This document shows, piece after piece, positions 45,477 to 54,714 of a stretch of 64,000 nucleotides of DNA. The stretch's first letter is position 1; each line of letters starts with the position of its first letter. Location of the stretch: assembly GCF_001419985.1 (NCBI RefSeq), contig NZ_LJAL01000004.1, forward strand, positions 124,001 through 188,000, written 5' to 3'. A program made the translations under genes and the position numbers. Origin of the DNA: Loktanella sp. 5RATIMAR09. GTDB taxonomy: Bacteria > Pseudomonadota > Alphaproteobacteria > Rhodobacterales > Rhodobacteraceae. Under the pieces are notes generated by a model. The model saw only the letters and a program-made list of their open reading frames with translations. It did not search any database and was not told the DNA's origin.

Positions 45477-46289
45477 ATGCAAGAAAAGATGATCACTCGG
45501 CCAGACGGCACCAGCATTTATGCGCAAATGACGGGTCCTGCGAATGGACCAACGGTGGTGTTCTCGAACTCCTTGGGCACCACCATGCACCTGTGGGATG
45601 CGATCCTGCCCTTACTGCCCGAAGGGTTGCGGATTCTGCGCTATGACATGCGCGGACACGGACGCTCGGATGTGCCCGATGCGCCCTATACGATGGGCCA
45701 GTTGATCAGCGATGCCGAGGCGGTTTGCGATACCTTTGATGTGCGGGACGCGATGTTCGTGGGGCTGTCCGTCGGGGGCATGATCGCGCAAGGGCTGGCC
45801 GTGAAACGGCCCGATCTGATCCGCGCGCTGGTGCTGTCGAACACCGCGGCCAAAATCGGCAATCCCAAACTCTGGCAAGACAGGATCAGCTTTATCACCG
45901 CGAACGGTCTGGCTCCGACCTCGGACGAAATCATGCGCCGCTGGTTCGGGCGCGATTTTTACGGAACGCCGGAAATGACCCCATGGAAAGCAATGGTGGA
46001 GGCCACTTCGGTCGCGGGCTATACTGGCGTCTGTGCAGCCATTGCAGGCACCGATTTTTATACGCCGACCAGCGGGCTGCGCATCCCTGCGCTAGGGATT
46101 GCCGGAACGGAAGACGGCTCAACACCGCCCGATCTGGTACGTGAAACAACCGACCTGATCCCCGGCTCGAAATTCGCGCTGATCCGCAAAGCCGGCCACC
46201 TGCTCTGCGTTGAACAACCAGCGGAATTCGCGCAGCACCTGAGCGACTTTATATCGGCAACCGGCCATTTGCCCCCGCCAAACGGTTGA
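45477..46289 (+). CDS. pcaD: 3-oxoadipate enol-lactonase-like hydrolase
   Basis: A 270-residue alpha/beta hydrolase close to PcaD, which opens 3-oxoadipate enol-lactone in the beta-ketoadipate pathway. FSNSLGTTMHLWDAILPLLP, RYDMRGHGRSDVPDAPYTM, Ser98 in FVGLSVGGMIAQGLA and the final His in KAGHLLCVEQPAEFA are typical. No other pca gene is in the window, so aromatic degradation is only suggested. The start is uncertain: ATG 45477 is chosen, with GTG 45438 (overlapping the previous stop) or ATG 45489 possible. Confidence 0.8.
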   Translation: MQEKMITRPDGTSIYAQMTGPANGPTVVFSNSLGTTMHLWDAILPLLPEGLRILRYDMRGHGRSDVPDAPYTMGQLISDAEAVCDTFDVRDAMFVGLSVGGMIAQGLAVKRPDLIRALVLSNTAAKIGNPKLWQDRISFITANGLAPTSDEIMRRWFGRDFYGTPEMTPWKAMVEATSVAGYTGVCAAIAGTDFYTPTSGLRIPALGIAGTEDGSTPPDLVRETTDLIPGSKFALIRKAGHLLCVEQPAEFAQHLSDFISATGHLPPPNG

Positions 46290-46330
46290 TCCCGCTTGCA
46301 AACCCGACCGCGCAGTCTAATCCTGCGCGG

Positions 46331-47548
46331 ATGAACAAACGCCTCGCCGTCACCTTTATCTTCATCTCGGTCATGCTTGACAGTATGGGGATCGGGCTGA
46401 TCATGCCGGTGATGCCCGACCTGATCCAAGAGGTCGAAGGCCAAGGCATCGGCGGCGCGGCCGTCTGGGGCGGTATTCTTGCGACGATTTTTGCGGCGAT
46501 GCAGTTCCTTTTCGGGCCGACCTTGGGTAGCCTGTCGGACCGCTACGGGCGCAGGCCCATTCTCATCATCTCGCTGGTGATCATGGCTTTCAATTATGTG
46601 CTGATGGCGCTGGCCTTCACTATCTGGCTGTTGATCGTCGCGCGGGTGATCGGCGGGATCACGGCAGCAACACAATCAACCTCGGCGGCCTATATGGCCG
46701 ATATCTCAGCGCCCGAGGAAAAAGCCGCAAACTTTGGCCTGATCGGGGCGGCCTTCGGCGTGGGGTTTGTGCTGGGCCCGCTGATGGGCGGGGCGCTGGC
46801 GGAATTCGGCACACGCGCGCCGTTCTGGGCAGCAGCATTTCTGGCGATGAGCAACGCCATTTTTGGCTACTATGTTCTGCCCGAGAGCGTGACCGACCGC
46901 ATCCGCCGCCCCTTTGAATGGCGACGCGCAAATCCGCTTGGGGCATTTCGCAATATCGGTGGTTTGCCGGGCGTGAAGCGTCTTTTGTTGATCAGCTTTG
47001 TCTATACCATCGCCTTTTTCGTCTACCCGGGCGTCTGGGCCTATTTCGGCGCGGAACGCTTTGGCTGGGGGCCTGGCATGATCGGCCTGTCACTGGGAAT
47101 TTTCGGGATCGGCATCGCGGTTGTCCAAGGCCTGCTGATCCGGCCAATCCTCGAACGCATCGGCGAGCGCAAGGCTGTGATCCTTGGTCTGTCGGTTGAT
47201 GTGCTGGCCTTTGTCGCGCTGGGGTTCGTGACGCACGGATGGGTCGCGCTGGCGCTGACACCGCTCACGGCGCTGGGGTCGATCGCGGGGCCTGCACTAC
47301 AAGGGATCATGTCGCGCACTGCGGCAGATAACCAGCAGGGCGAATTGCAAGGCACAGTCAGTTCCATCAACGCGATTGCCACCATTGTCGCCCCGCTGAT
47401 GGTCACGCAGACCTTTTGGTTTTTCACCGACGGTCACGGCCCGGTCTATGCGCCCGGCGCGCCTTTCATTCTATCGGCGATCCTGACTATCGGCTGTATT
47501 GTGGTTTTTGTCCAAACCCCCCGGCCAAAGCGCGCTCGCGGCACATAA
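46331..47548 (+). CDS. MFS transporter, TetA/TCR family
   Basis: A 405-residue twelve-helix drug:proton antiporter-like protein. Motif A is clear (GSLSDRYGRRPILIISLV), helix 1 reads FIFISVMLDSMGIGLIMPVM with the Asp typical of TetA, and motif C-like LIGAAFGVGFVLGPLMGGAL follows in helix 5. The start ATG 46331 (MNKRLAVTF) is chosen over a longer frame. Tetracycline resistance should not be assumed; such chromosomal copies are common. Confidence 0.88.
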   Translation: MNKRLAVTFIFISVMLDSMGIGLIMPVMPDLIQEVEGQGIGGAAVWGGILATIFAAMQFLFGPTLGSLSDRYGRRPILIISLVIMAFNYVLMALAFTIWLLIVARVIGGITAATQSTSAAYMADISAPEEKAANFGLIGAAFGVGFVLGPLMGGALAEFGTRAPFWAAAFLAMSNAIFGYYVLPESVTDRIRRPFEWRRANPLGAFRNIGGLPGVKRLLLISFVYTIAFFVYPGVWAYFGAERFGWGPGMIGLSLGIFGIGIAVVQGLLIRPILERIGERKAVILGLSVDVLAFVALGFVTHGWVALALTPLTALGSIAGPALQGIMSRTAADNQQGELQGTVSSINAIATIVAPLMVTQTFWFFTDGHGPVYAPGAPFILSAILTIGCIVVFVQTPRPKRARGT

Positions 47549-50730: not shown

Positions 50731-51084
50731 TTATCCCTCATGGACGACGTTGAATCCCCCCATGATAAGGCGCTTACCATCAAAGGGCATCGGCATTGCA
50801 TCCGGGGCCATGCGCGGATCTTGCATTGCCGCGCTCCAGCCGGCGTCGCGTGCTGCTTTGTCCGGCCAAGCGACCCAGGAGAAGACGATAATTTCGCCGG
50901 GTGCGGCTTTCACGGCCATCGGCATGGATGTCACCTCACCATCGGGGACGTCATCGCCCCAACAATCGACAACCGAGGTTGCGCCGTGTTCCTTGAATAC
51001 TTCGGTCATTGCGCGCGAGAAGGCGATGAAGTCGTCCTTCTTGGTCTCCGGCACGGCGCATATCATTCCATCAACGTAGCCCAC
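50731..51084 (-). CDS. DUF1428 family protein
   Basis: A 117-residue alpha/beta barrel-type small protein of DUF1428: MGYVDGMICAVPETKKDDFI, the core VVDCWGDDVPDGEVTSMPMA, FSWVAWPDKAARDAGW and MPFDGKRLIMGGF. The start is GTG at 51084, six bases after AAAGGAG. It is a single gene with no informative neighbours. Function unknown. Confidence 0.9.
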   Translation of the reverse strand: MGYVDGMICAVPETKKDDFIAFSRAMTEVFKEHGATSVVDCWGDDVPDGEVTSMPMAVKAAPGEIIVFSWVAWPDKAARDAGWSAAMQDPRMAPDAMPMPFDGKRLIMGGFNVVHEG

Positions 51085-51334
51085 AGTACTCTCCTTTTGT
51101 CACTTGCTTTACAGCTTTTAGTTCTTGGAAATCGCTGTTTCCGCAGATCATTGCGAAAACCTGTTCGTCGTCTGCGTGATGATAGCACGTTGGCCGGTTT
51201 GAGTCTGCATCATCCACATAACAGACAATGTTCTGACCTCTGCGGGGGCTTTGCGCAACGCGACCCTCTCCCTCAGCGCGGGTCTCCAACGCAGGAACAC
51301 GGCTCTTTCCAAGCCTTGATCCCTCCCTTATCAT

Positions 51335-51347
51335 TGAACTGCGTTCA
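51335..51347. promoter_or_regulatory. TGAAC-N3-GTTCA dyad before tetR (site 1)
   Basis: TGAACTGCGTTCA, 16 bases before the tetR ATG. Identical half-sites recur at 51966 and 52024 around the pspA promoter, pointing to autoregulation by the adjacent TetR protein. Confidence 0.7.
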
Positions 51348-51363
51348 TTAAAGTGAGGGGCCG

Positions 51364-51963
51364 ATGGCAACGAAAACAGAAATCCGCAGACAGGAACTCC
51401 GCGACAAGCTGATCGTGATTGCCGAACGCACCATTGCGCAAAACGGCCTGTCCGCCTTGCGTGCCCGTGATCTGGCGGGCGAGGCAGGCTGCGCTGTGGG
51501 AGCGATCTACAACGTCTTTGGTGACCTCACGGATCTGACACTCGCCGTCAATGCCCGCACCTTTCACCGCCTTGGCGCGGAAGTTGCCGAAGCATTGGCC
51601 GCAGCCCCCGAGGACCCCGTCGAACAACTGGTCGTCATGGCACAGGCCTATCATCACTTTGCAGCAAGCAATCACCTGAGCTGGCGCGCGCTTTTTGACG
51701 TCGAACGCCCTGCGGGCGAGGCAGCACCCGATTGGTACCTTGCCGAAATGGGGCAGCTTTTCACCTATATCTCTGATCCGCTTGCCGTGATCTTTCCGGA
51801 GCGGGAAGCCGAGGAACTTGCACTTTTGACCCGCGCGCTCTTTTCCTCGGTACATGGAATCGTGCTGTTGGGGTTGGACGAGGCAAGCGCAGGCGTGTCC
51901 ACGGGCAAGATCGACCACATGATCGCCCTTGTTTTACGGCAATTCACCGCCTCCCGAAAATAA
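51364..51963 (+). CDS. TetR-family regulator, predicted controller of the pspA operon
   Basis: A 199-residue TetR/AcrR repressor. The N-terminal helix-turn-helix spans about residues 10-58 (LIVIAERTIAQNGLSALRAR, then DLAGEAGCAVGAIYNVFGDL); the remainder is the helical ligand and dimer domain. GAGGGG lies just before the ATG. Three copies of TGAAC-N3-GTTCA flank this gene and the next promoter, so it very probably represses itself and pspA. The inducing signal is unknown; lipids or hydrophobic compounds are typical for the family. Confidence 0.85.
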   Translation: MATKTEIRRQELRDKLIVIAERTIAQNGLSALRARDLAGEAGCAVGAIYNVFGDLTDLTLAVNARTFHRLGAEVAEALAAAPEDPVEQLVVMAQAYHHFAASNHLSWRALFDVERPAGEAAPDWYLAEMGQLFTYISDPLAVIFPEREAEELALLTRALFSSVHGIVLLGLDEASAGVSTGKIDHMIALVLRQFTASRK

Positions 51964-51965
51964 TT

Positions 51966-51978
51966 TGAACATTGTTCA
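51966..51978. promoter_or_regulatory. TGAAC-N3-GTTCA dyad upstream of the pspA -35 (site 2)
   Basis: TGAACATTGTTCA, three bases after the tetR stop; one further T/A pair extends the dyad. It ends nine bases before the predicted -35 hexamer of pspA. Confidence 0.72.
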
Positions 51979-51987
51979 ATTTTTGTC

Positions 51988-52016
51988 TTGCAAGCGCAAG
52001 GCTGACTCGTTATCTC
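51988..52016 (+). promoter_or_regulatory. Predicted sigma70 promoter of pspA
   Basis: TTGCAA (51988-51993), exactly 17 bases, TATCTC (52011-52016). It lies between operator-like sites 2 and 3; site 3 covers the expected start point near 52023. Confidence 0.6.
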
Positions 52017-52023
52017 TATTTTA

Positions 52024-52036
52024 TGAACAGTGTTCA
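52024..52036. promoter_or_regulatory. TGAAC-N3-GTTCA dyad at the pspA start point (site 3)
   Basis: TGAACAGTGTTCA, seven bases after the predicted -10 and 26 bases before the pspA ATG, a classical repressor position. Confidence 0.72.
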
Positions 52037-52062
52037 CGCACTGAAACGAAACGGAGAAACAG

Positions 52063-52743
52063 ATGTTCAAGACACTTGCTACGCTCATCAACGGCCAGAA
52101 TGCCCGCGCAGAGGATCGCGTCCGTGATGCCTTTGCGATCGAGCTGATCGACCAGAAAATTCGCGAAAGCGAGGCCAGCTTGCGCGCAGCCAAAGCCACG
52201 CTTGCAAGCCTGATCCAGCGCCAGCGGTCAGAGGAAAAGCAATATGCGGGCCTGAAAAACCGCATCAGCGATCTGACCAAACGCGCCAAGGAAGCACTGG
52301 ACAACGACCGCGAAGATCTGGCTACAGAGGCCGCCCGCGCGATTGCCAATATGGAAAACGAACTGGCCGTCCGCAGCGAAACCCTTGATCGTCTTGATCA
52401 AAAGGTCGTCCGCCTGCGCACGTCGATCGAAAGCGGGCACCGCCGGATCATCGACCTCAAGCAAGGGGCTATTCAGGCCCGCGCGGTCCGTCGTGAGCAG
52501 AATATCCAGATGCAGATGACGAAAACAGGTGTGCAACACGGCAGCGTCGAAGAGGCCGAAGAATTGATCGCCCGCGTCCTGGGCCGCGACGACCCCTTCG
52601 AGCGCAGCGAAATTCTGGCGGACATCAACCGCGATCTGGAAGGCGGCAACCTCACCGACCGCATGGCAGACGCAGGTTTCGGCAGCGCCACACGCACCAC
52701 AGCCGATGATGTACTCGCGCGCCTCAAGTCATCCAAGAAGTAA
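52063..52743 (+). CDS. pspA: PspA/IM30-family membrane-stress protein
   Basis: A 226-residue, almost wholly helical coiled-coil protein of the PspA/Vipp1 superfamily, which forms ESCRT-III-like assemblies that support damaged inner membranes. The N-terminal helix (MFKTLATLINGQNARAEDRV) is the membrane contact; SLIQRQRSEEKQYAGLKNRI, RAKEALDNDREDLATEAARA and VRLRTSIESGHRRIIDLKQG are the hairpin helices. The C-terminal part (RDDPFERSEILADINRDLEG) is like that of PspA proteins paired with YiaA-type partners. GGAG precedes the ATG. No pspB, pspC or pspF is nearby; control appears to be by the adjacent TetR protein. Confidence 0.9.
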   Translation: MFKTLATLINGQNARAEDRVRDAFAIELIDQKIRESEASLRAAKATLASLIQRQRSEEKQYAGLKNRISDLTKRAKEALDNDREDLATEAARAIANMENELAVRSETLDRLDQKVVRLRTSIESGHRRIIDLKQGAIQARAVRREQNIQMQMTKTGVQHGSVEEAEELIARVLGRDDPFERSEILADINRDLEGGNLTDRMADAGFGSATRTTADDVLARLKSSKK

Positions 52744-52778
52744 ATCAAACACCTCAATTCACAAAAAAGGACAGACAA

Positions 52779-53057
52779 ATGCTTAAGAATAATTCGGACA
52801 ACGCCCTGATCATGACAGTCAACCTGCTTGGCGTGGTCATCGCCTACGGCATGCTTGGCATCTCGCTGTGGCTGTCCACCGATGTGCCGCTGTCGACCAA
52901 AGGTTTCTGGGCCATCTCGGTCATGATGCTGACGCTCTCGCTGGTGAACTTTGTCAAATACCGCTTTGACGAACGCATGGCCGAGGACCGCATCCAGCGC
53001 ATCGAAGACGCCCGCAACGAAAAGCTGCTGGAAGACTACGTCGGCGAAAACCGCTGA
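52779..53057 (+). CDS. YiaA/YiaB-like two-helix membrane protein
   Basis: A 92-residue protein with two predicted helices (about 10-31 and 43-60; MTVNLLGVVIAYGMLGISLW and GFWAISVMMLTLSLVNFVKY) and a charged C-terminal helix. The S-T-K-G-F-W turn and loop resemble the YiaA/YiaB domain. AAAGGA lies eight bases before the ATG, 36 bases after pspA, so the pair is co-transcribed and ends at a strong terminator. It may anchor PspA to the membrane; that is inference. Confidence 0.75.
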   Translation: MLKNNSDNALIMTVNLLGVVIAYGMLGISLWLSTDVPLSTKGFWAISVMMLTLSLVNFVKYRFDERMAEDRIQRIEDARNEKLLEDYVGENR

Positions 53058-53065
53058 TCACCCCC

Positions 53066-53104
53066 GCCCTGCCCCTGATCAGGGGCAGGGCTTTGCCCTT
53101 TTCA
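53066..53104 (+). terminator. Intrinsic terminator after the pspA-yiaA pair
   Basis: A 26-base perfect dyad (arms GCCCTGCCCCTGA and complement, 53066-53091) followed by TTTGCCCTTTTC. It should end most transcription before the acyltransferase gene, so that gene may rely on read-through or a separate start. Confidence 0.85.
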
Positions 53105-53134
53105 AAATCCGCGCCCTGCGCCAGAGTTAATCCC

Positions 53135-53776
53135 ATGAAATTCTTACGCCAGTTCGCAGCCCGCATCGTCGGCCAATCCATCCGCATCTTCGCGCGCGCA
53201 ATCACGGCCGTGCGGGCGGAATGGAAGGGGATTGAACCGGTCCCGCGCCAGCGCGTCTATTTTGCCAACCACACCAGCAACGCCGATATGCCGATGATCT
53301 GGTCGGTCCTGCCCCCCGCACTGCGCCGCACGGTCCGCCCCGTGGCCGCCGCTGATTACTGGCTGAAAAACAAACTGCGCGCCTTTGTTGGGCCCGAGGT
53401 CTTCAATTGCGTGCTGGTCGACCGCCGCCCCGAGGTGAAAGACAAACCGATGGACAAGATCATCGCCGCCCTCGATGAAGGATCGTCGCTGATCATCTTT
53501 CCCGAAGGCAACCGCAATATGACCGAGGACCCGTTGCTGCCCTTCAAGGCGGGGCTCTACAATATGGGTGTCGCGCGACCGGATGTTGATCTTGTCCCCA
53601 CATGGGTGGCCAACCTGACCGAAATCATGCCCAAGGGCGAGGTGATCCCCCTGCCGCTGATTTGCACTGTCACCTTTGGCGAGCCGATCCACGTGCACCC
53701 CGGCGAAAGCAAGGACGACTTCCTGAAGCGGGCCTCTGACGCCTTGCTCGCCCAACGGCCCGAGGCCCACAAATGA
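53135..53776 (+). CDS. plsC: 1-acyl-glycerol-3-phosphate acyltransferase (PlsC-like)
   Basis: A 213-residue PlsC-type acyltransferase making phosphatidic acid. The HX4D motif is NHTSNAD, and the substrate-binding FPEGNR appears in SLIIFPEGNRNMTEDPLLPF. One N-terminal amphipathic or membrane helix is likely. The start ATG 53135 (MKFLRQFAARIVGQ) is chosen over a longer frame passing through the terminator. It overlaps the CdsA-like gene by four bases, so precursor and CDP activation steps are coupled. Confidence 0.9.
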   Translation: MKFLRQFAARIVGQSIRIFARAITAVRAEWKGIEPVPRQRVYFANHTSNADMPMIWSVLPPALRRTVRPVAAADYWLKNKLRAFVGPEVFNCVLVDRRPEVKDKPMDKIIAALDEGSSLIIFPEGNRNMTEDPLLPFKAGLYNMGVARPDVDLVPTWVANLTEIMPKGEVIPLPLICTVTFGEPIHVHPGESKDDFLKRASDALLAQRPEAHK

Positions 53777-54714
53777 GCAGCACCACAGCGGATATCCTTC
53801 TTTTGGCCCTTGGCAGTTTCGGCATCCTGATCACCCTCACTGTGCTGGGCGAAATTCTGCGCGCACGCCAGCCTGTCCATGACGCCAACCCGATGCTCGA
53901 CACCTATATGACCCGCGTCCAAAGCTGGTGGGGCATGGTCGCTTTCATTGGTGCGGCGCTTTTGCTGGGCAAACCGGGGATCATGACGCTTTTTGCCTTT
54001 GCATCATTCGCCGCACTGCGGGAATTTCTGACGCTGACCACCAAAACGCAGGCCGATCACCTGGCGTTGGCGCTTGCCTTCTTTGCGGTTCTGCCCCTGC
54101 AATATGTCTTTGTCGGCTTCGGCTGGACCGGCCTCTATACCGTCTTCATCCCGGTCTACGCCTTTCTTTTCCTGCCCATGATCTCGGCCCTGCGGGGCAA
54201 TCCGCAACGCTTTCTGGTGCGGGTCGCGGAAACCCAGTGGGCGCTGATGATTGCGGTTTTCTGCGTCAGCCACGTGCCCGCGCTGATGTCGCTTGATATC
54301 GCAGGCTACGGCGACCGTTCGGTCCTGCTGATTGCCTTCCTTGTCATGGTCGTGCAAATCGGTGACCTGCTTGATTTCTTCTTTGGCCGCCGGATCGGCC
54401 GCACCAAGATCGCCCCCGGCCTGTCACCCAAAACATGGGAAGGGCTGGTCTGCGGTGTTCTGAGTGCCATGGTGATTGGCGCCATGCTCAGCTGGATCAC
54501 ACCTTTCGGCCTGTGGGGGGCCGCGCTTATGGCGGGCATTGCGTCGCTTGTCGGGATGTTCGGCAATCTCGTGGTTGCCGCAATCAAGCGCGACCGCGGT
54601 GTGAAGGACTGGTCGCACCTGATCCCGGGACAAGGCGGATTTGTAGACCAGCTCGACAGCGTGATCTTTGCCGCACCGATTTTCTATCAGCTGACCAAAT
54701 TCTTCTACACCTAA
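53773..54714 (+). CDS. CdsA-like phosphatidate cytidylyltransferase with variant signature
   Basis: A 313-residue membrane protein with about eight helices, converting phosphatidic acid to CDP-diacylglycerol in the classical family. The C-terminal signature reads AAIKRDRGVKDWSHLIPGQG then GFVDQLDS. Against the usual S-x-L-K-R...P-G-H-G-G...D-R-x-D it has Ala for Ser, Gln for His and Gln for Arg, and the preceding GDL is GNL. The KR, KD and the two Asp near the end are kept. It is likely a second, specialised CdsA beside a canonical one elsewhere; activity should be tested. Confidence 0.82.
   Translation: MSSTTADILLLALGSFGILITLTVLGEILRARQPVHDANPMLDTYMTRVQSWWGMVAFIGAALLLGKPGIMTLFAFASFAALREFLTLTTKTQADHLALALAFFAVLPLQYVFVGFGWTGLYTVFIPVYAFLFLPMISALRGNPQRFLVRVAETQWALMIAVFCVSHVPALMSLDIAGYGDRSVLLIAFLVMVVQIGDLLDFFFGRRIGRTKIAPGLSPKTWEGLVCGVLSAMVIGAMLSWITPFGLWGAALMAGIASLVGMFGNLVVAAIKRDRGVKDWSHLIPGQGGFVDQLDSVIFAAPIFYQLTKFFYT

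Follow-up and report, generated by a model that had tools for sequence, protein, structure and literature searches.

Comparison of a 64,000-nucleotide stretch of the Loktanella sp. 5RATIMAR09 genome (contig NZ_LJAL01000004.1, positions 124,001 to 188,000; hereafter the window) with related genomes points to a Psp-type membrane-stress regulon under the control of a one-component repressor of the TetR family in Rhodobacteraceae, a reading to which we assign a probability of about 0.85. The evidence is read from sequence, and consists of a palindromic dyad (TGAAC-N3-GTTCA), its conservation, its overlap with promoters, the co-inheritance of TetR and PspA, and the spread of further dyad-bearing genes. 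Taken together, these comparative data strongly support TetR control of pspA.

The tetR-pspA locus

The features of the window on which this reading is based are as follows.

51306..51334, + strand: promoter-like hexamers of tetR (TTTCCA, spacer of 17, TATCAT), from a promoter scan; the 3' end abuts the dyad
51335..51347, + strand: putative autoregulatory operator of tetR, TGAAC-TGC-GTTCA; the centre is not purine-N-pyrimidine (R-N-Y)
51364..51963, + strand: tetR, TetR-family repressor, 199 amino acids (Pfam and structure match)
51966..51978, + strand: putative pspA operator 1, TGAAC-ATT-GTTCA, 5' of the -35 hexamer
51988..52016, + strand: pspA promoter TTGCAA-N17-TATCTC (TTGCAA 51988-51993, TATCTC 52011-52016, spacer 17)
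52024..52036, + strand: putative pspA operator 2, TGAAC-AGT-GTTCA, covering the expected start site
52063..52743, + strand: pspA, PspA/IM30 family protein, 226 amino acids (Pfam)
52779..53057, + strand: YiaAB-like small membrane protein, 92 amino acids (sub-cut-off Pfam match)

A preliminary description of the window had listed a TetR gene, pspA, a two-helix YiaA-like gene, and plsC-like and cdsA-like genes in one direction. The gene calls agree with this list, the YiaAB match being below its cut-off. The three dyads that it reported, at 51335, 51966 and 52024, were recovered as the only exact copies in the 64 kb. Shuffling of the window gave a mean of 0.04 exact dyads, and none of 100 shuffles reached three, so the three copies are not a product of chance. 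The pspA promoter is flanked by the dyads at 51966 and 52024, with the hexamers and the spacer of 17 that had first been given for it. A generic promoter scan of the window did not list this TTGCAA/TATCTC pair, and the generic promoter and terminator scans both returned counts of about the chance level. The tetR hexamers are weak alone (1 found versus 1.2 expected by chance in the promoter scan), and lie next to the operator.

Conservation of the dyad at tetR and pspA

Orthologous loci were compared in a named set, comprising the 80 best of 370 loci that surround tetR orthologues, close relatives included (loci and genomes are cited by our L and G numbers). The closest locus among the records compared was that of Loktanella sp. 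PT4BL, whose TetR is 99% identical, followed by those of uncultured Rhodobacteraceae, Yoonia and Roseobacter sp. CCS2; some records that closely resemble the window may be missing from this comparison. The dyad at tetR was exact in 79/80 loci, with one mismatch in L058. In 71/80 loci pspA lay downstream of tetR, mostly directly, and exact dyads, between one and three in number, accompanied 70 of these 71 pspA genes within 260 bases (two in 51, three in 17, one in 2, none in 1). The tetR-upstream and tetR-pspA intervals together held 234 exact copies versus 4 with a single mismatch. A YiaAB-like homologue was present in 69 of the 71 pspA-holding loci.

The dyads at pspA were spaced 56-59 bases apart, or 21-23 and then 33-35, with a single gap of 35 in one locus. 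Where three-dyad promoters were displayed, the -35 element (cTTGAAC, hexamer TTGAAC) is formed by the middle dyad, and the third covers the expected start site. This predicted placement at the pspA promoter has the geometry that steric repression requires.

Co-inheritance of TetR and PspA

A genus-level sample was assembled from one genome per genus in the family (198 genomes), and TetR was matched at 1e-10 in 53 of them. The TetR+ set was made up of the 42 best genomes (E up to 1.4e-26), 11 weak matches (E 7e-22 to 7e-11) being left out, and the TetR- set consisted of 40 genomes out of the 145 in which TetR had no match. PspA, scored by PF04012 with E up to 1e-5, was present in 35/42 TetR+ genera versus 0/40 TetR- genera (Fisher 1.6e-16). 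Each of the 35 genus-level pspA genes was closely preceded by two or three exact dyads (30 by direct reading, 5 by coordinates). In G132, tetR and pspA were on separate contigs and two dyads were retained at pspA, which argues for TetR action in trans. In a distant TetR group (about 37-44% identity), some genomes contained divergent tetR and pspA genes sharing a three-dyad array (L157, L158).

The preliminary description had made its proposal depend on conservation of the dyads before orthologous tetR and pspA genes. They are exact at 79/80 tetR loci, 70/71 pspA genes of the named set and 35/35 at genus level, and its suggestion that TetR controls PspA and the small membrane partner is well supported at the sequence level.

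Central triplet of the dyad

In 30 genus-level loci, an R-N-Y centre was present in 67/68 dyads downstream of tetR versus 9/29 dyads at tetR itself (Fisher 7e-13), and 19 of the 29 tetR dyads had exactly one good half. Among the distinct 23-base sites of the named set, in which related species are included, the corresponding values were 134/143 on the pspA side versus 3/76 at tetR. A strict rule making tetR dyads half-sites was rejected, the R-N-Y count being 3/76 in the named set but 9/29 at genus level. Only the contrast between tetR dyads and downstream dyads (67/68 R-N-Y) holds firmly. The window follows it, with a TGC centre at tetR and R-N-Y centres in all five extra dyads elsewhere in its genome. 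We infer that autoregulation acts through a weaker site, the tetR dyad, which would keep some TetR in production at all times.

Other genes behind dyads

Genome-wide, 155 R-N-Y dyads were found in 40 TetR+ genomes versus 21 in 40 TetR- genomes, most of the 155 being at tetR-pspA loci. Simple base composition was considered as a cause of the excess; the reversed-pattern control (16 versus 16) speaks against it. G112 and G153, with 64 and 69 exact sites, were left out of this count. Their reversed control gave 1 site each. All 23 sites sampled in G112 were in stop-free frames of at least 609 bases, so they are mostly intragenic, and the sampled sites of G112 (23) and G153 (15) showed no extended motif and had centres not limited to R-N-Y. 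These two genomes put the palindrome to a different use.

The Loktanella genome contained eight exact dyads versus two for the reversed pattern, five of them outside the window. Two, 53 apart, are directly before a gene for a small Ala/Ser-rich lipoprotein-like protein followed by a DUF2145 gene, and one is directly before the gene for an unnamed polytopic membrane protein of 400 residues. The remaining pair, 29 bases apart (L011:5356-6042), precedes genes for two small membrane proteins that are flanked by a murC-like and a murB-like gene, the mur identities being read from sequence; it ties the regulon to a cell-wall cluster.

Across genera, 40 stretches around dyads away from known tetR-pspA loci were inspected, of which L157 and L158 proved to be the divergent tetR-pspA loci and L122 an unlinked pspA. 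The membrane protein of about 400 residues was found behind dyads in 7 genera, including that of the window, and the lipoprotein-like/DUF2145 pair in 3 genera. A periplasmic-type protein of about 400 residues without a Pfam match was also found in 3 genera, with two abutting dyads in two of them (L144:3510-3535, L145:3575-3600) and a single dyad in the third. A RoxA-like cytochrome and a small lipoprotein-like protein each recurred in 2 genera. Targets seen in one genus were a PlsC-type acyltransferase (G145), a VIT/VWA protein (G171), DUF2339 (G054), Acyl_transf_3 (G160), DUF2585 (G032), DUF5671 (G163) and a ketoacyl-acyl carrier protein synthase III (KAS III) gene (G190); those with a single dyad in a single genus are individually weak. 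In G190, the KAS III gene follows a dyad pair and is itself followed by epimerase-like and hydrolase-like genes (L149:726-3581), and one R-N-Y dyad precedes an M48-type metalloprotease-like gene (L151:2703-3470); the last three identities are read from sequence. A dyad pair in G185 (L141) was not counted as a target, since it sits between two convergent frames, beyond the 3' end of each.

The membrane protein of about 400 residues was present in 13/42 TetR+ versus 5/38 TetR- genomes, and was preceded by an exact dyad in 8/13 versus 0/5 of these. Among the eight, one comes from G153, with its 69 sites, and the G022 gene is split into two frames in that assembly; there the promoter holds three dyads with a pspA-like 23/34 spacing (L134:1755-3010). 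A DUF2157 identity for the protein was rejected, as PF09925 matched in 0/80 genomes and two members scanned had no Pfam match. Neither search covered G033 or G061. Four TetR+ genomes (G026, G079, G134 and G171; 93-100% complete) had no PspA by PF04012 and no pspA beside tetR. Because they keep dyads at other targets, these other genes seem to be targets independently of pspA.

Several observations weigh against a TetR-run regulon of this breadth, or against its regularity. One pspA gene of the named set (L076) is without dyads, and two TetR+ genomes, G185 and G112 (L230), have no exact dyad near tetR. G166 (71% complete) was scored as PspA-less by PF04012, yet a weak pspA-like match lies beside its tetR (E 1.5e-6 with the PspA of a relative). 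Because divergent copies can be missed in this way, the 35 PspA-positive genera are a lower bound. The mur-cluster target is found only in the genome of the window, and 5 of the 13 homologues of the 400-residue membrane protein in TetR+ genomes have no dyad. Several genera (G070, G108, G003, G025) have exact dyads at tetR-pspA and nowhere else, which makes the wider regulon a lineage-specific one.

Protein families and structural relatives

The window TetR was barely above both Pfam cut-offs (PF00440, 24.1 versus 24.0 bits; PF13305, 28.0 versus 26.8). Pfam and a fold match to 3cjd together place a TetR_N DNA-binding domain and the TetR fold in it. Its structure was modelled with a predicted local distance difference test score (pLDDT) of 93, and the model matched 3cjd with Z 24.9 and a root-mean-square deviation (rmsd) of 1.5 over 182 residues. 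3CJD is the solved structure of a TetR protein from Jannaschia sp. CCS1, titled a putative regulator, and is an orthologue of the window TetR (E 3.4e-90 with the profile, 52-53% identity, rmsd 1.5-1.9 Å). It has the same fold, its records state no function or operator, and a literature search found no paper on it.

The window PspA reached 74.2 bits against PF04012 (PspA_IM30; cut-off 33.9) over residues 2-225, and scored far below the NCBIfam equivalog phageshock_pspA (TIGR02977; 23.5 versus 242.95 bits). By these scores it is a member of the PspA/IM30 family and not a phageshock_pspA equivalog. The small membrane protein missed the cut-offs of both PF05360 (23.1 versus 26.6 bits) and NF008482 (19.4 versus 150); because of its PF05360 score we term it only YiaAB-like. 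The hydropathy of its two helices is 2.12 and 1.51. None of PspF, PspB and PspC was found among six neighbouring proteins scanned with Pfam, and no genome-wide search was made for them.

In structure comparisons, FasR, KstR, FadR, EthR2 and QacR lay in a narrow score band below 3cjd, with FasR and KstR above QacR by Foldseek. Since many TetR structures score alike below 3cjd, the fold names no ligand. The lipid-responsive FasR, KstR and FadR share the TetR fold with the window protein at about 14-21% identity, and the FasR model gave 25.1 bits versus 330. Of 33 invariant columns in the TetR alignment, 22 are from residue 63 on, and would fit either a conserved pocket or a dimer face.

The plsC-cdsA genes and the intergenic hairpin

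Downstream of the YiaAB-like gene, the window contains three further features.

53066..53091, + strand: GC-rich hairpin of 11 pairs between yiaAB and plsC (z -4.2), a possible terminator or attenuator
53135..53776, + strand: plsC-like acyltransferase (Pfam), probably a separate unit
53773..54714, + strand: cdsA-like cytidylyltransferase (Pfam), with a 4-base overlap with plsC

The plsC-like protein reached PF01553 (Acyltransferase; 61.1 versus 23) and did not reach TIGR00530 (40.9 versus 102.95). Likewise, the cdsA-like protein reached PF01148 (CTP_transf_1; 178.2 versus 24) and did not reach the equivalog NF008635 (79.6 versus 385).

The preliminary description had placed phosphatidic acid and CDP-diacylglycerol synthesis in the same response, with TetR regulating plsC and cdsA together with pspA to supply both lipids. 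The order tetR-pspA-yiaAB-plsC-cdsA on which it drew was present in 58/80 named loci, and read-through of the hairpin is possible. Some loci lack pspA-yiaAB and keep tetR with plsC-cdsA (L071, L094, L112, G171), and three of these retain an exact dyad between tetR and plsC (L071, L094 and, at L245:1105-3501, G171), either as a remnant or as live control of plsC. The dyads at the separate PlsC-type gene of G145 and the KAS III gene of G190 would be in line with co-regulation.

The other observations point away from it. The window has no exact dyad between yiaAB and plsC, L112 has none between tetR and plsC, and the hairpin separates yiaAB from plsC in the window and in its relatives. It folded at -19.5 kcal/mol or lower in 55/55 relatives (3 more had unsuitable intergenic lengths). 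Compared with shuffles, its z was below -2 in 42 of the 55, and 32 beat all 40 shuffles, so its conservation is weaker than the folding energies alone implied. The copy in the window has a weak T-run, and was not called by the terminator scan. tetR-pspA-yiaAB occurs without plsC-cdsA in 11/80 named loci (a few contigs being short), and plsC-cdsA is absent from 12/71 pspA loci (some contigs end nearby). The five-gene order stands as a recurrent arrangement, and a single transcription unit does not follow from it. plsC-cdsA are probably transcribed mainly on their own, and the data support their neighbourhood and not a proven co-regulation, as far as the sequences indicate. We consider the co-regulation of lipid synthesis with pspA unlikely, and a lipid link of the regulon possible but thin.

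Proposed mechanism and alternative explanations

Binding and repression by TetR, its ligand and the order of operator affinities, all of which we infer, would combine as follows. In unstressed cells, TetR would occupy the dyads flanking or covering the -35 element and start site of pspA-yiaAB, blocking RNA polymerase, and would limit its own gene via the dyad over the tetR start site. Upon membrane damage, a ligand, probably hydrophobic and cytoplasmic, would bind the TetR C-terminal domain. TetR would then leave the DNA, and PspA and the YiaAB-like membrane protein would be made. The scattered accessory targets, such as the lipoprotein-like/DUF2145 pair and the unnamed polytopic protein, would be derepressed at the same time. 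With R-N-Y centres at the targets and often one such half at tetR, tetR would be repressed less tightly.

In its fullest form, the model holds that a lipid-sensing repressor replaced the usual Psp regulators and runs an envelope-repair regulon (PspA, the YiaAB-like protein, the lipoprotein-like/DUF2145 pair, the 400-residue membrane protein, RoxA-like cytochromes and others), with the central triplet setting operator strength, R-N-Y for tight control and a half-match for self-control. We offer this version tentatively, as one possible elaboration.

The nature of the signal separates this model from two others. TetR could be a sensor of xenobiotics or toxic amphiphiles of the AcrR/QacR/TtgR sort, in which case membrane-active compounds, and not a lipid signal, would induce PspA. 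AcrR is the best NCBIfam match of the DNA-binding part, although far below cut-off (33 of 271 bits), drug-bound QacR is among the structural matches, and a transporter-like frame (46286-47548; major facilitator superfamily type by sequence reading, no family search made) lies about 3.8 kb upstream of tetR. However, this frame has no dyad, no efflux gene was seen beside tetR or among the recurring targets, and FasR and KstR, which bind ligands of the acyl-CoA type, outrank QacR in Foldseek. A xenobiotic sensor is a doubtful reading, though one to be kept in view. The signal could instead be borne by a protein, with PspA or the YiaAB-like protein holding or releasing TetR, much as PspF is held by PspA in enterobacteria. 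Co-inheritance of TetR, PspA and the YiaAB-like gene would fit. Small ligands are, however, the usual inducers of TetR proteins, and TetR seems to work without PspA in the four TetR+ genomes where none was found, as these keep dyads at other targets; we regard a protein-borne signal as quite improbable.

The dyads themselves could belong to another regulator, such as a LexA-like repressor, since Gram-positive LexA boxes resemble TGAAC-N3-GTTCA. The half-sites, N3 apart in the conserved set, and the phyletic pattern, in which the dyads track TetR genome by genome and also lie on tetR itself, speak against the LexA reading, which was dropped, and leave any regulator other than TetR with a very small probability.

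Relation to known systems and significance

PspF is the sigma-54 activator of the enterobacterial Psp response, in which a PspA/IM30 protein and a small membrane protein are likewise encoded together, presumably against membrane stress. There, the activator gene is next to pspA; in roseobacters, by contrast, the pair is accompanied by a TetR repressor, a sigma-70-like promoter and a YiaAB-like partner. The roseobacter system, as predicted here, is a new form of the Psp response, one run by a TetR repressor. Lipid-responsive TetR repressors also include DesT and PsrA; their operators are palindromic, and their targets are lipid metabolism genes and not pspA.

PspA is a relative of the endosomal sorting complex required for transport III (ESCRT-III) that guards membranes, according to the part of PMC8281802 available. 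Ravi et al. 2024 (PMC11237479) describe PspA homologues paired with different regulators by lineage (PspF, LiaRS, PadR-like and others); in the main text as available, TetR, YiaA, CdsA and PlsC have 0 mentions each. No pspA appears in the available main text of Leyn et al. 2016 (PMC5343134), and PspA was noted in a roseobacter proteome under several conditions (PMC6308992, in part). A pspA gene was among the genes raised when the TetR gene ZMO0281 was deleted in Zymomonas mobilis, an effect tied by the authors to a resistance-nodulation-division (RND) efflux pump and energy imbalance. This is also an alphaproteobacterial TetR affecting pspA; the passage available claims no pspA operator (PMC10998469). 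The psp genes of Zymomonas are described, in the available part of another paper, as pspABCD with PspF (PMC8645129). Our literature search, mostly outside the reach of subscription papers, found no report of TetR-run pspA in Rhodobacteraceae.

For the question of how membrane damage is sensed to induce PspA, a soluble TetR whose operator is conserved offers an easy entry point; finding its ligand would name the signal. The rigid operator makes candidate targets readable from genomes, and suggests new envelope-repair candidates in marine bacteria, namely the 400-residue membrane protein, DUF2145 with its lipoprotein-like partner, and the DUF2339 and DUF2585 proteins. The several genera that have lost PspA but kept other targets amount to a natural experiment.

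Upstream of tetR, the window contains a DUF1428 gene (50731-51084, - strand). In 8 of 9 relatives printed, its place is taken by an enolase-superfamily-like frame, identified by reading of the sequence.

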